Of a DNA stretch of 26,832 nt, positions 4,971 to 13,054 are shown in pieces. Under the pieces are notes generated by a model. The model was given only the letters and a program-made list of their open reading frames with translations. It did not search any database and had not been told where the DNA came from. A program made the position numbers and the translations under genes. The stretch is from a virus. Numbering within the stretch: position 1 is the first letter of the stretch; each line of letters starts with the position of its first letter. The stretch covers positions 1 to 26,832 of the IMG/VR virus record IMGVR_UViG_3300042544_000617; one strand, given 5' to 3'.

Positions 4971-5291
4971 TCAAAAGGTCGCAGCAGAAATAAACAGTTG
5001 GTCAACCTGACTCGAAGTCAAGCCCAATGCCTCAGCACCGGATAACAGAACAGGGTCGGCACGATTCCAGTGTGTAGCCTTGTCGATAAACGCTCTTTCT
5101 GAAAACGTGCGTGACTCACTCGACGCCCACTCAGAATAAGCCTCTGACAGCCCTGCCGCGTTAATCGCTAACAGCCCTTGTAATGCGCTGACCCGAGTCG
5201 GAACAGGGTCAGAAGCCGGCAGAGAGGCCAGCCACGCATCTTGCTCCTGCTGCCCCATTTGTGCCGGAACGCCGTTGACTAATTTTATCAT
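4971..5291 (-). CDS. Small fibre-region protein, assembly-factor-like (106 aa)
   Basis: The 106-residue protein begins MIKLVNGVPAQMGQQEQDAW. It ends with a helical segment containing GLTSSQVDQLFISAATF. This layout, with a short N-terminal strand, a polar linker and a C-terminal GLT..QVD.LF helix, recurs in small proteins next to tail fibre genes (XkdW-like or fibre-assembly type). I infer a role in fibre assembly or attachment. Its ATG overlaps the stop of the fibre gene by four bases (ATGA), so the two are probably made in step. Confidence 0.6.
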   Translation of the reverse strand: MIKLVNGVPAQMGQQEQDAWLASLPASDPVPTRVSALQGLLAINAAGLSEAYSEWASSESRTFSERAFIDKATHWNRADPVLLSGAEALGLTSSQVDQLFISAATF

Positions 5292-6310
5292 GTTCTACGC
5301 ACCCCGTATAACGTGAATATGCCTGACTGAATGTTGCCCGTATTTATGAAGAATCTAACGGCATTTACCGGCAATATTGATCCAACCCTCATCCCTGAAG
5401 ATACGCCGCTATTAATGTTTCCGACGCTGTTAATCTGCATCCATGTCCATAAAAAGGTTTTTTGTTTTACGGCGCTAGATGGATTTATTAACATCATTTC
5501 AAACGAGCCGCCCGGATCTTCTGACACATCATTCCTGACGCTTGTCAGCACACGGAGGCTGCTGCCTGTAGACGGCGCGTCAATGGTGAGGAATGAATAA
5601 TCCGTTCCTCCCGAATCATAAGTCGCGCCGCCGTTTGTTGAAGTCCTCATCAATAACTGCTGACTGGTTGACGCCGGGACTACGTTTAATCCATGAACAC
5701 GATACTCGCTAAAGTCTGCGCTCAACCCGGTAAAGTCTACCGTTGCAGAGTTTGAAGCCGTAACGGTTGCAATAGGAACCATGACCTTGATTGACGACTG
5801 CGTTACATTGCCAATACCTTGCGGGTCTGAAGTATCAACAGTGTATACATTGCCGTTATTAGTGCCATCAAAGCCTATCTGTTTAACAAACAGTCTCCAC
5901 TTTTCCGGAGATAAAAGCGGGTCGTTTGCAATGTTGCTATTATCACGGGATACGTAAAAGTAGCCATCAGAACCAGCAACAACGGCATTGACCGGATAAG
6001 ACACATCAGTCGACCAGGTGGAAAATGATTCATCGCCCGCTGAGAAGTCCCCAACAGGATCTCTTGTCTCAATTATCTCGCCTTCTGAATCCTTCAATAC
6101 AGCCTTCGCCACCCCTGAAAAGAACACATTGGGAAGCCTGCCCGCTGCATCAAGTAACACAGGGTTAGTGTTCTTAATGGTCATGGCTGAGTCTGAATAG
6201 GTATCCTTCAGCGTAGTAGTGCCGGGTTCATAGAAAGTAACCGAGCCACCGCCCAAGACTACGTTGTCATCGGTGAAATACTGTGTGCCTAGTGTTCCGA
6301 AGCGAGCTAT
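5288..6310 (-). CDS. Tail fibre/spike N-terminal-domain protein with ATA start
   Basis: The protein has 340 residues if translated from ATA at 6310. Residues 1-75 form a virion-attachment region with the pattern GGSVTFYEPGTTTLKDTY, then NPVLLDAAGRLP. This resembles the P22 tailspike head-binding and related fibre N-termini. Residues ~95-150 contain a WSTDVSYPVNAVVAGSDGYFYVS carbohydrate-binding-like block. The C-terminal ~170 residues look like a beta sandwich. No in-frame ATG or GTG lies near the 5' end. The ATA has GGGAGGG with a 7-base spacer and overlaps the upstream TAG by four bases (ATAG), exactly like the ATGA overlaps elsewhere. The next usable in-frame codon is TTG at 6256, which has no ribosome site and would remove 18 residues of the conserved domain. 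The ATA probably descends from ATG. Confidence 0.75.
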   Translation of the reverse strand: MARFGTLGTQYFTDDNVVLGGGSVTFYEPGTTTLKDTYSDSAMTIKNTNPVLLDAAGRLPNVFFSGVAKAVLKDSEGEIIETRDPVGDFSAGDESFSTWSTDVSYPVNAVVAGSDGYFYVSRDNSNIANDPLLSPEKWRLFVKQIGFDGTNNGNVYTVDTSDPQGIGNVTQSSIKVMVPIATVTASNSATVDFTGLSADFSEYRVHGLNVVPASTSQQLLMRTSTNGGATYDSGGTDYSFLTIDAPSTGSSLRVLTSVRNDVSEDPGGSFEMMLINPSSAVKQKTFLWTWMQINSVGNINSGVSSGMRVGSILPVNAVRFFINTGNIQSGIFTLYGVRRT

Positions 6311-6813
6311 GATTGTACCCTCCCGTGGTTCGCGTGGAACCCATATCTATTTTCGGCAGACTTCCTTGCACAGCATGCGTCAAGGAAATTGATAAAGCTT
6401 CCCACTTCATGAAAGATGTTAGCGTGCTTTATTCTTACCCTCCAGTTATTGTTATTTTTATTCCAAGCAACGCCCATTATTCCGGTAGTATTATTTGAGC
6501 AAAGCTTTCTATTCTGCATGTTTTCGGAATGGGAAACTCCGCGCAAATTATCCCACGCATTATCAGATGAATCCCCGTTTATATGATCAACTTCTTCCGG
6601 TATATACCCTTGCATTATAAGGAATGCAATTTGGTGGGCGCGGTATATGGTCTTGTCAGCCATAATCACTATTCTGTTACCAAGCCTGTCTAAACTTCCC
6701 GCTTTTTGACCAATTTTAACTACGTTTGAGTTAGAGGCTTTCCACGTAATATCGCCGGTTTCTGGATTGTAATCAAAAAGCTCTTTTGCTCTTGATTGCG
6801 TTAATCTTGCCAT
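6307..6813 (-). CDS. HNH homing endonuclease, free-standing
   Basis: The protein has 168 residues. The HNH_3-type core is at ~53-91 and includes YRAHQIAF, VDHINGDSSDN and WDNLR; the D-H pair at 76-77 is the metal/catalytic site. An AP2-like DNA-binding region (GIMGVAWNKNNNNWRVRI) follows at ~111-129. Such enzymes nick or cut a specific site and spread their own gene between related phages. It lies exactly between the ejection-protein stop (TAATG overlap) and the fibre start, not within an intron or intein. It is visibly AT-richer than its neighbours, which supports recent transfer. Its start context (GGGAG, then ATGGC) probably belonged to the fibre gene, because the first codons M-A-R mirror the fibre's [M]-A-R. 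Confidence 0.9.
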   Translation of the reverse strand: MARLTQSRAKELFDYNPETGDITWKASNSNVVKIGQKAGSLDRLGNRIVIMADKTIYRAHQIAFLIMQGYIPEEVDHINGDSSDNAWDNLRGVSHSENMQNRKLCSNNTTGIMGVAWNKNNNNWRVRIKHANIFHEVGSFINFLDACCARKSAENRYGFHANHGRVQS

Positions 6814-8957
6814 TATTGGTTATCTCCCGCCTTATCCATCGCTGACGCCAAAAACCATGATTCAAGATATGCCGCATCTTGCCTTGCGTTGCCGCCGCTT
6901 AAATTCTTGGTAAGCATTGCCCTATATAATACAGGATCGGTTGCCGCCTCTTTCATTAATCTTTCTGCCTCGTTTGATGTAAGCCCGGCCAAAATTCTGC
7001 GCGCCCTGTTTGACATATACTGAGCCATCACAAGACTCGACCCCATGCCATTGCCTGCAATCGCCTGACCTTGCTTTGCGCCGACTAACGCCGCCGCTAA
7101 CTGCATAATGCTTGCCGGCCCATCTTCAAACAACTGATCCACTGCAGCGGGAGGCTTTTGCTCCAATACAGATATTTCCCGCGCCATTCTAAATGTGCGA
7201 CCTATCTCGTCATCGCTCATGCCGAGCGCCTTCATAACCTGGCGGTTCTCTTGTATGTCTCGGGTCAACTGTCTACCCGACACAAACGCTACGCCCGCAT
7301 CCGTTGTGCTGGCAGACTGTCCTGCAGCTCTGGTGAACAGTGTATTGATAAAATCAGCCTGCACCGCTTTTTTGCCTTGGTCATCCATGCCTCTGACAAA
7401 CATCGACGCCCTTCGCGGGTCTCCAATCACCTCTTCCGTGCTTCTGCCTGATAGCGCAATCTCTCTTAACTCCTGCACTGCAGGGTCTTGCCCCCTTGCG
7501 TACTGTGACTGCGTTGTTAAGCCGCCCATGCGAATAGCTTCAGAAAGCTGATCCGGCGTAAGGTTGCGATCGCCTGCGCTAAATATCGCGCTTTCAACCA
7601 CTTTGTATTTGCGATACTGCGAATCTGCCGCCCTAACAACATCGCGCACATCGTCTGGCAATGAATCTTCAATACGCTGAGTTAAAACCGCCTCTGCCGA
7701 GTTCAGCAAGTCTGCGCGCTCCATGTTTTGCGATCGCATTTGCTTTCGTCTTTCGCTTCTAATCCGGCTTCTAAGGTTTAGCAGGTCGTCACTTGTCAGC
7801 GGCACATCTCTGCCTTCTATAGCGGTCATTTGGTTAGACAGCCATCGGGCTACCGCGTCACGCTCACCATCAGACGCCATGATAAAATCATCTTTTGAAG
7901 CGCCGACAACTGCATTTTTTAAGCCGTCAATCTCTACGGGAATACCTCTTGCCTGATCATACAATGGCTCAAATGATCGGTAAGCACTGTCTAGCATTTC
8001 ATCTGACTGGCCTTTGTCTATTTTGGCTCCCTGTGGCGTCACGCGCTGCAATACAGAAAACTCCCAATCTTGTCGGCTTCTCGGCCTGCCGAACGAGTCA
8101 AGCAATTCATTTTGAGCAAGCAATCGTGCGTCCTGCAATTCCTGCCTGACCACCGGCTCAAGATCAGGGTTGTCCATCAGAAGCCTTGCTTCCTGCGCCA
8201 TTAATCTGGAATCGCCAATCCACTGAGCCGGAGTAACTCCCTCTGGAATGGTGTCTAGCATGGTTGCAAATTTCTGCGCACGATCCTGACCGCCCGCCCT
8301 TTCTTGCATCTGACGCGATGCGCGTATCATACCTCCCTCGGTTGTCATAGGCGCAAGGTTAGCAGCTAATCCTTCGCGTGTTGCACGTATGCCAGCCGGT
8401 ATGCCAGCAACAAGCCCGCCGCCTACAAGGCCACCAGCAACCTCAGCAACCAACTGACCAGCAACGCCCGCTTCAGAGTCTTTCGCCACCTGTCCCGCCG
8501 CGCCTGCTGCTCCAGCCGCACTAAGCTCTGTCCCGAAGTATGTCTTAGGCCGATTTCTTGCGAAGTTGGCAATATCATCCACCATGCTCCTAAAAATACC
8601 AGTTGATCGCGGTATCTGACCGGGCGCAGTGCCAGCCAGCGGAATACCTGCAGCAAATGGAATGGCCGATCCTGCATAGCGCGCAGCCGCGCCTAATGGC
8701 CCCTGTTTTGCTTCCTCATCAGATCGCATAAGCCCCGCGCTTTGTAGTGCTGGGACGGCGCCTGGAATCAGCCCAAGCATGCCCGCGTTAATTTCCTGAG
8801 CTGCAGACCCAGCGCCTTGCACAAACCTTTGCGCCATGTTTTGCCGAGGCTGTCGCGCAGCTTGTTCTGGCTGAACCTGAGCAGACCCCATCCGACGCCT
8901 GCGCTCTTGCTCTGCTAATGCAAGTGCAAGCTGTCTTTGCGTGTTAGCGTCCGGCAT
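6813..8957 (-). CDS. Internal virion / DNA ejection protein (714 aa)
   Basis: This is a 714-residue protein. It has a Q/R/A-rich start (~5-50) and three glycine/alanine-rich hydrophobic stretches at ~54-76, 86-110 and 143-190, followed by a long, mostly helical region to the end. This layout fits podovirus ejection proteins, which are packed in the head and form or line a conduit across the host envelope. No lysozyme or transglycosylase motif was recognised. It begins with GAGAGG upstream and overlaps the preceding gene by 14 bases, and it follows two other ejection-type proteins. The role is inferred from order, size and composition. Confidence 0.7.
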   Translation of the reverse strand: MPDANTQRQLALALAEQERRRRMGSAQVQPEQAARQPRQNMAQRFVQGAGSAAQEINAGMLGLIPGAVPALQSAGLMRSDEEAKQGPLGAAARYAGSAIPFAAGIPLAGTAPGQIPRSTGIFRSMVDDIANFARNRPKTYFGTELSAAGAAGAAGQVAKDSEAGVAGQLVAEVAGGLVGGGLVAGIPAGIRATREGLAANLAPMTTEGGMIRASRQMQERAGGQDRAQKFATMLDTIPEGVTPAQWIGDSRLMAQEARLLMDNPDLEPVVRQELQDARLLAQNELLDSFGRPRSRQDWEFSVLQRVTPQGAKIDKGQSDEMLDSAYRSFEPLYDQARGIPVEIDGLKNAVVGASKDDFIMASDGERDAVARWLSNQMTAIEGRDVPLTSDDLLNLRSRIRSERRKQMRSQNMERADLLNSAEAVLTQRIEDSLPDDVRDVVRAADSQYRKYKVVESAIFSAGDRNLTPDQLSEAIRMGGLTTQSQYARGQDPAVQELREIALSGRSTEEVIGDPRRASMFVRGMDDQGKKAVQADFINTLFTRAAGQSASTTDAGVAFVSGRQLTRDIQENRQVMKALGMSDDEIGRTFRMAREISVLEQKPPAAVDQLFEDGPASIMQLAAALVGAKQGQAIAGNGMGSSLVMAQYMSNRARRILAGLTSNEAERLMKEAATDPVLYRAMLTKNLSGGNARQDAAYLESWFLASAMDKAGDNQ

Positions 8958-11868: not shown

Positions 11869-12360
11869 TTACCTCCGCAGCATCATGCGTGCAACATCTT
11901 GAGGACTCATCTCGCCTTGCGGCATTCCTTGAGTCATTGGTTGAGGCATTCCGCCCAAAGGATTCATGTTAGGCTGATAGGTCTGCCGCTGAAACATGGA
12001 TGGGTCATATTGAATCTGTGTCATCGGCGTATTACGCGCGAATTGCCCGAAGTTTACGCCCTGACCTAAGATAGCTTGCTGGAACGCCGGCAAACCGCCC
12101 AGAAGATACGCCTGTGCCGCCATATTGCCTTGCTGCTGTGCTTGTATCTGTTGGGGCGCAAATTGCCCTATGACGTCAGCAGCGCCTTGGAAGCCTTGGC
12201 CTGTTGCGCGTTGCATTTCAGGCAAGGCTCCCGCAAGGAAGTTCTGCGCCTGACCTGTTTGAGACCTGATAAAGTCTTGGGATAGTTGATTCTGCGCCTC
12301 AGTTTTACGCTGCGCGCTCCGATCAGTACCGCCGAATATGGATTTGACTGCGTTGCTCAT
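11869..12360 (-). CDS. Small ejection/internal virion protein (163 aa)
   Basis: The 163-residue protein is rich in Q, G, A and M and is helical at ~15-75. Its tail contains NMNPLGGMPQP and MSPQDVARMMLRR. The composition matches the larger ejection proteins that follow. Its ATG overlaps the GNAT stop (ATGA). It may correspond by position to P22 gp7-type proteins, but no direct sequence hallmark was seen. The assignment is by neighbourhood and composition. Confidence 0.6.
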   Translation of the reverse strand: MSNAVKSIFGGTDRSAQRKTEAQNQLSQDFIRSQTGQAQNFLAGALPEMQRATGQGFQGAADVIGQFAPQQIQAQQQGNMAAQAYLLGGLPAFQQAILGQGVNFGQFARNTPMTQIQYDPSMFQRQTYQPNMNPLGGMPQPMTQGMPQGEMSPQDVARMMLRR

Positions 12361-12818
12361 GGTAGCGCCTCAATTTCTGATCTAGTAATGCCTAAACTGA
12401 TTTGATGGTGTATTTTACCACTTTTTCGGAAACTACGCCTATTAATGCCCTCTCTGACCATCCCACACTTTTCTGCGAATCGAATCACGTTTGGGTAAAT
12501 GTCGGGGATCTCGCAGTTAACCTTGTCGAAACTCACGTTAGCCACTATCCATTTGAGAGCGTCTCTTGCTGCTTTGTAGGCTAATTCGCCCCGATACTGT
12601 GGAAGCATCATGATGTGAATCTTCAAAGTGACCGAGTTAAGCGCATGAAGGTTAAGCACGCCAATTAGCGTTTCGCCGTCATAAGCGCCTAACCACCCTT
12701 CAGTTAAATCAGGCTCCCACTTTGCAATATCCATATTATCTTCGCTGATTTCATTCCACAGAACAGGATGGCCGGCTACCGACATAATCAAATCTTGGTC
12801 AGTTAGTGGCTTAATCAT
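12357..12818 (-). CDS. GNAT-family acetyltransferase
   Basis: The protein has 153 residues. The GNAT fold is suggested by a central strand pair (WLGAYDGETLIGVLNLHAL), then IHIMMLPQYRGELAYKAARDALKWI, where the acetyl-CoA loop normally lies. The usual Q/R-x-x-G-x-G/A loop appears here as the variant QYRGELAYKA. The C-terminal part, YPNVIRFAEKCGMVREGINRRSF, is a standard GNAT motif B. The substrate is unknown. GNAT genes of this kind recur inside podovirus morphogenesis modules, possibly modifying virion or host proteins. The ATG at 12818 is chosen because it overlaps the upstream stop (ATGA) behind GGTGGG; an in-frame GTG at 12830 is less likely. Confidence 0.8.
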   Translation of the reverse strand: MIKPLTDQDLIMSVAGHPVLWNEISEDNMDIAKWEPDLTEGWLGAYDGETLIGVLNLHALNSVTLKIHIMMLPQYRGELAYKAARDALKWIVANVSFDKVNCEIPDIYPNVIRFAEKCGMVREGINRRSFRKSGKIHHQISLGITRSEIEALP

Positions 12819-13054
12819 GCCAATTCCCACCCTTGCAAAATGTTCCCGCCAATGTCGGGTAGCATTTTTATGTAAATGCGACTCCCTTGCGCTCCTGTCG
12901 TGTCTATATACAGGCTAAACTGCCGAGCCTTCACTACGCCTTCAGGGCTTCCCGCGCCGGTAGTCGGAGTTCCCAGGTCAGTGCGAGCCATCCACAGCCT
13001 AAAAGCATCAGAAGCCTTGTTATCTGTTACGATGGGTAGCGAATGGTTATACAT
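12815..13054 (-). CDS. Small conserved-looking protein of unknown function (79 aa)
   Basis: The 79-residue protein contains SDAFRLWMARTDLG and KARQFSLYIDTTG, probably a short beta-rich fold. Its start overlaps the stop of the gp10-like gene (TAATG) and its stop overlaps the GNAT start (ATGA), so it belongs to the neck-ejection stretch of the operon. I do not recognise the family. It may be a minor neck or head-completion component; this is inference from position. Confidence 0.6.
   Translation of the reverse strand: MYNHSLPIVTDNKASDAFRLWMARTDLGTPTTGAGSPEGVVKARQFSLYIDTTGAQGSRIYIKMLPDIGGNILQGWELA

Follow-up and report, generated by a model that had tools for sequence, protein, structure and literature searches.

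The fibre locus

The window, meaning the whole stretch of 26,832 nucleotides analysed here, has a P22-type portal and the gene order portal-coat-ejection-tail, and is thus classed with the P22-like podoviruses. Its portal is related to records annotated as P22-like portals and is 40% identical over 94% to that of Pseudoalteromonas phage vB_PspP-H6/1 (KX257490), the nearest annotated relative by portal; PHROG comparison also gave a match to DNA ejection PHROG 598. A GNAT-like protein (DUF2824, PHROG 651, head morphogenesis) is encoded among the structural genes at 12357-12830. No tRNA was found in the window, hence no phage-coded initiator tRNA there. The minus strand carries, in order, an ejection-type gene (8957-6813), an HNH gene (6813-6307) and a fibre gene (6310-5288), with these features:

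6813-8957, minus strand: upstream gene, 714 aa, from the ORF list; at the position where phage H6/1 has its last putative ejection protein
6811-6828, minus strand: captured fibre start, Shine-Dalgarno (SD) GGGAG (6828-6824) plus ATG GC (6813-6809), now that of the HNH gene; the TAATGGC junction matches HNH-less relatives
6307-6813, minus strand: HNH endonuclease gene, free-standing, homing type, 168 aa (Pfam HNH_3, PHROG 99)
6327-6341, minus strand: possible 5-bp hairpin just before the fibre SD, GGTTC-CACGC-GAACC; pairs kept in 8/8 ATA loci
6318-6324, minus strand: GGGAGGG, fibre SD; overlaps the stretch of HNH that encodes its conserved C-terminal His-Gly-Arg
6308-6310, minus strand: ATA, proposed fibre start codon, aligned with ATG (79 loci) and TTG (2 loci)
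6307-6309, minus strand: TAG, HNH stop, forming an ATAG overlap with the proposed fibre start; identical in all ATA loci
5288-6310, minus strand: fibre/tailspike-type gene, 340 aa counted from ATA, recognised by N-terminal alignment with the H6/1 putative tailspike
6254-6256, minus strand: TTG at residue 19, earliest canonical start in frame; rejected as the fibre start

The upstream gene has no Pfam or PHROG match and is called a putative ejection protein from position alone, the gene order being that of KX257490. The stop of this gene and the HNH start overlap in TAATG. The HNH ORF is well supported, with a Pfam HNH_3 E value of 1.8e-14 (53.5 bits, against a curated cut-off of 24.8) and a PHROG 99 E value of 6.2e-62. 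An HNH encoded within a group I intron was considered and rejected, since the ORF fills the space from the captured ATG to the fibre and leaves no room for an intron core. An earlier note on this DNA had given 6307-6828 as the fibre gene; that interval spans the HNH gene and its ribosome site, and the fibre ORF is 6310-5288.

The N-terminal part of the fibre aligns from residue 1 with the H6/1 putative tailspike (37% over 164 columns), the residue encoded by ATA lying opposite the initiator Met (MSRY...), and homologous IMG/VR loci begin MARF or MARY... where the window has ATA. The frame from ATA begins IARFG..., and across the junction it reads ...REGTI followed by IARFGTLGTQYFTDD. No ATG, GTG or TTG occurs in this frame between the upstream in-frame stop and ATA, nor before residue 19; ATC at 6313 was tried as a start and rejected, the codon not being conserved. 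Homologues with Met at the codon and the absence of an available canonical start place the fibre among candidates for near-cognate AUA initiation. The spacer from GGGAGGG (6324-6318) to ATA (6310-6308) is 7 nt. This spacing, the missing canonical start and the ATAG overlap had all been described in the earlier note; they hold on re-reading, and the ATA recurs in eight contigs. The ATA observation is thus confirmed, and its interpretation as an AUA start is supported and extended by comparison with related loci. As a whole, the fibre looks chimeric, its N-terminal part matching tailspikes of P22-like phages and its C-terminal part (residues 161-337) a protein of Pelagibacter phage HTVC019P (28%).

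Start codons in related phages

Relatives were collected by a coat-protein search, which returned 80 related contigs, several with a fibre, and then by an alignment of seven fibre N-termini, which brought 80 more; searches of viral_contigs and genome_contigs with fibre or ejection-protein peptides had given no close relatives. The homologous start codon was readable in 86 other phage loci, being ATG in 79, TTG in 2 and ATA in 5 (L130, L131, L134, L170 and L193), where the counts are of loci and not of independent lineages, as some loci nearly duplicate one another or overlap as parts of a single contig. The C-terminus of the HNH protein (FHxNxGR) is encoded directly upstream in 5/5 ATA loci, against 0/81 of the ATG and TTG loci. 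A second scan, run over viral_contigs with any start codon allowed, looked for fibre N-terminal codons 8-14 nt behind a GGGAGG and added L217 and L223, both ATA with an HNH tail; its sole other new entry was a known TTG locus without HNH, and the pattern scan of genome_contigs gave chance matches only. With the window included, ATA is found in 8/8 contigs that have the HNH tail. The prediction that HNH-less relatives would have ATG directly after the ejection gene was borne out in L152, L132, L141 and H6/1.

These numbers bear on a trivial explanation, that the codon is in truth ATG and that ATA is either a minority variant or a mistake of sequencing or assembly. A single G-to-A change would suffice, and the window comes from an uncultured virus in IMG/VR. 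Yet ATA behind this HNH tail recurs in seven other contigs, each assembled on its own and with protein identities as low as about 57%, which puts the window ATA beyond chance and beyond error. Given recurrence in eight contigs, a base error at 6308 is very unlikely, and we give this explanation practically no credence.

Half of the ATA contigs retain a complete HNH gene (the window, L130, L193 and L223), and the other four have only a short remnant. In L131 and L217 the remnant is a 15-codon ORF (MRFHxNxGRVAP), in L134 a 20-codon-sized ORF (MARKSAELIMGFHANHGRVAQ), and in L170 a stretch with no ATG, GTG or TTG in the HNH frame. GGGAGG encodes the Gly-Arg of the HGR conserved at the C-terminus of this HNH family and is invariant in all 8 ATA loci. 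The window HNH is 58-61% identical to the full HNH proteins of L130, L193 and L223, and the 61% shared with L193 indicates that the arrangement is old. Separately, in two HNH-less relatives, L166 (2501) and L157 (2501), a strong SD precedes a TTG fibre start; weak start codons are thus tolerated by this gene outside the ATA lineages as well.

Evidence for use of the ATA

Across the eight loci the first canonical start downstream of ATA falls at residue 19, 41, 51, 51, 41, 51, 67 and 142, and with positions this variable ATA is the sole common candidate. Production of a slightly shorter fibre from the later start would at least use a normal start codon, TTG 6256 in the window, and the one that gene finders would choose. 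However, TTG 6256-6254 has no SD, as the earlier note had also found, lies inside the conserved N-terminal domain and is not conserved in relatives, where the corresponding starts are 41-142 residues in and the domain would be lost. Moreover, the N-terminal stretch is under purifying selection in ATA lineages. Codons 2-18 across the ATA set have pN 0.133 versus pS 0.615, the L170 branch has 9 synonymous and 0 non-synonymous changes over codons 2-141, and the synonymous:non-synonymous branch counts are 7:1 for L131 and 10:2 for L217; the counts for L193 (7:3), for L217 when L132 serves as the outgroup (1:2) and for L223 (1:3) are weaker or uninformative. The codons between ATA and the next canonical start are still constrained, initiation at 6256 is disfavoured, and we consider a later start very improbable.

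The same counts speak to a second possibility, that phages carrying HNH translate the fibre gene poorly or not at all and that ATA is a damaged start in the course of being lost. It would fit this notion that AUA is a weak start and that HNH has decayed by two or more distinct paths. On the other side, the branch counts favour constraint, the frames are open over 340-927 aa in loci readable to a stop, the SD is unusually strong, and ATA persists after HNH loss though one transition would restore ATG. We judge a silent fibre highly unlikely.

The SD itself is the next line of evidence. Duplex energies at the ATA loci are -10.3 to -10.8 kcal/mol (GGGAGGG of the window, -10.8), versus a mean of -5.55 and a strongest value of -9.5 kcal/mol among 52 distinct ATG contexts, all of them weaker than the ATA loci; the two TTG loci have -8.8 and -10.3 kcal/mol. 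Strong SDs at ATA and TTG loci would fit compensation for a weak start codon, a comparison that is supportive only, as the 8 SD/ATA tails share ancestry and are not 8 independent points. As for conservation of the codon, the A at 6308 doubles as the middle base of the HNH stop, and in the four full-HNH loci its conservation may reflect the stop and not the start.

A third possibility is that GGGAGGG acts as a stimulator of -1 frameshifting, fusing the fibre to the HNH or remnant peptide. Relative to HNH the fibre does occupy the -1 frame, which stays open over the 7-18 codons preceding ATA. A slippery heptamer is missing, though, and the final sense codon differs between loci (TCA, ACA, CCA, CAA); the L170 remnant has no ATG, GTG or TTG in the HNH frame, and with leaders ranging from 15 to 168 aa the fusion products would be very dissimilar. 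We hold frameshifting to be very unlikely, and return to initiation at the ATA itself. On these comparisons, translation of the fibre from AUA is very likely, and the fuller proposition, AUA initiation of a structural gene inherited together with a homing endonuclease whose conserved HGR codons supply the SD, we consider probable.

Origin and maintenance of the arrangement

Presence and absence of HNH at one site can be compared in close relatives. L223, with HNH, and L141, without it, are 89% identical upstream and through ATGGC, beyond which L141 continues as fibre and L223 as HNH; since they diverge right after ATGGC, the ribosome site and ATG that once served the fibre now serve the HNH gene. 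On the downstream side, L193, with HNH, is 92% identical to the HNH-less L152 and L196, and L193/L196 form a sister pair. The remnant-bearing loci have similar partners: L217 (ATA) and the HNH-less L152 (ATG) are 92% identical over 2.7 kb, L170 and the remnant-free L187 are 92% identical, and L131 and L132 align cleanly on either side of the 33-nt remnant. L193 and L223 encode identical HNH proteins and are 94% identical in HNH-fibre DNA, with unrelated upstream genes, similarity breaking off precisely where HNH starts; HNH and fibre would thus seem to recombine together as a modular unit.

We propose that an HNH homing-type gene inserted exactly at the fibre gene start and took over its ribosome site and ATG. 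The fibre would have been left with a new start, in which GGGAGG, a strong SD from the C-terminal HGR codons of HNH, is separated by 7-8 nt from an ATA that shares bases with the HNH stop. Ribosomes that finish HNH or a remnant ORF, or that bind the SD directly, would then begin the fibre at AUA, using initiator tRNA. Codon 2 of the fibre is conserved as GCN (Ala), which makes an ATGA overlap impossible and permits a four-base stop/start overlap only as ATA+G, with TAG as the stop; we infer that this constraint would explain why the codon is ATA.

In the fibre tree, which has few columns, the ATA loci are scattered, with 7 changes, at least 2 of them forced by well-supported branches. The simplest reading is that the HNH cassette carries its TAG stop, and hence ATA, into different fibre alleles, with HNH homing as the presumed route of spread. 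After HNH deletion the ATA would remain, and among the loci compared the arrangement is seen to persist where most of the mobile gene is gone. The earlier proposal that HNH insertion created the ATA stands insofar as all relatives with an HNH tail have it, but it needs recasting, from a single event in this phage to a property of a cassette found in several fibre lineages. Its corollary, a link between endonuclease and fibre expression, is made plausible by the ATAG overlap without being a necessity. Wherever ribosomes read HNH or a leader ORF, coupling to termination of HNH is likely, and L170, with ATA behind a remnant that has no start codon, suggests that the SD alone can suffice.

A broader idea, which we advance tentatively and regard as rather doubtful, is that this HNH family carries a portable translation-start module (hairpin, SD in the HGR codons, AUA overlapping the stop) that would replace the start of the invaded gene, lower the fibre level and couple it to endonuclease translation; after endonuclease loss it might be kept as a short leader ORF, the phages having adapted to the lower or coupled level. 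Conservation of the hairpin as an element is only a weak suggestion. One pair is changed on both sides (A-U/G-C) among the 8 ATA loci, which are few sequences, the hairpin is not the minimum-energy fold in every ATA locus, and control shuffles reach the observed level 20 to 254 times in 500.

Comparison with known systems

The closest parallel to the initiation event is in Staphylococcus aureus, where infC, ccpN and citZ have natural AUA starts with extended SDs and are expressed at about 10-30% of AUG (PMC13009471). In both cases a strong extended SD would guide AUA initiation, with expression in S. aureus lowered but real; here, by contrast, the gene is a phage structural gene and the AUA is tied to a mobile endonuclease gene whose stop it overlaps. 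For E. coli, ATA starts are quoted in PMC12864459, from Hecht 2017, as up to 1% of ATG. Initiation at the E. coli level may be too weak for a structural protein, and E. coli may not be the host.

For the genetic arrangement, the free-standing homing genes of T4-like phages are the nearest known case. The seg and mob genes likewise place an endonuclease gene between two phage genes, with stop/start overlaps that suggest translational coupling, such as the UAAUGA overlap of mobE at nrdA (PMC2988022). In the T4 cases the endonuclease start overlaps the upstream stop, whereas here the HNH gene additionally sits on the start of the downstream gene and leaves it a near-cognate codon. The H6/1 tailspike gene has a homologous N-terminal domain, the same gene order and a start right after the ejection gene (TAATG), but has no HNH gene and an ATG start. 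An SD within HGR codons is not unique to the fibre site: in L087 (start 989) and L104 (start 2025) the HNH HGR codons GGA AGG lie at SD distance from an overlapping downstream gene, although that gene starts with ATG and is not a fibre (ORFs of 177 and 88 aa). A literature search of partial coverage turned up neither an AUA-initiated structural gene of a phage nor any earlier report of HNH insertion combined with an AUA fibre start.

Gene finders accept ATG, GTG and TTG only, and fibres of this kind would thus be annotated 18-141 residues short, with the N-terminal domain lost. If the AUA is used as proposed, these phages would provide a natural and recurrent AUA start in a virion structural gene, for which matched ATG sister phages are available, and they would show a mobile endonuclease rewriting the start of the gene that it invades and leaving a lasting scar.
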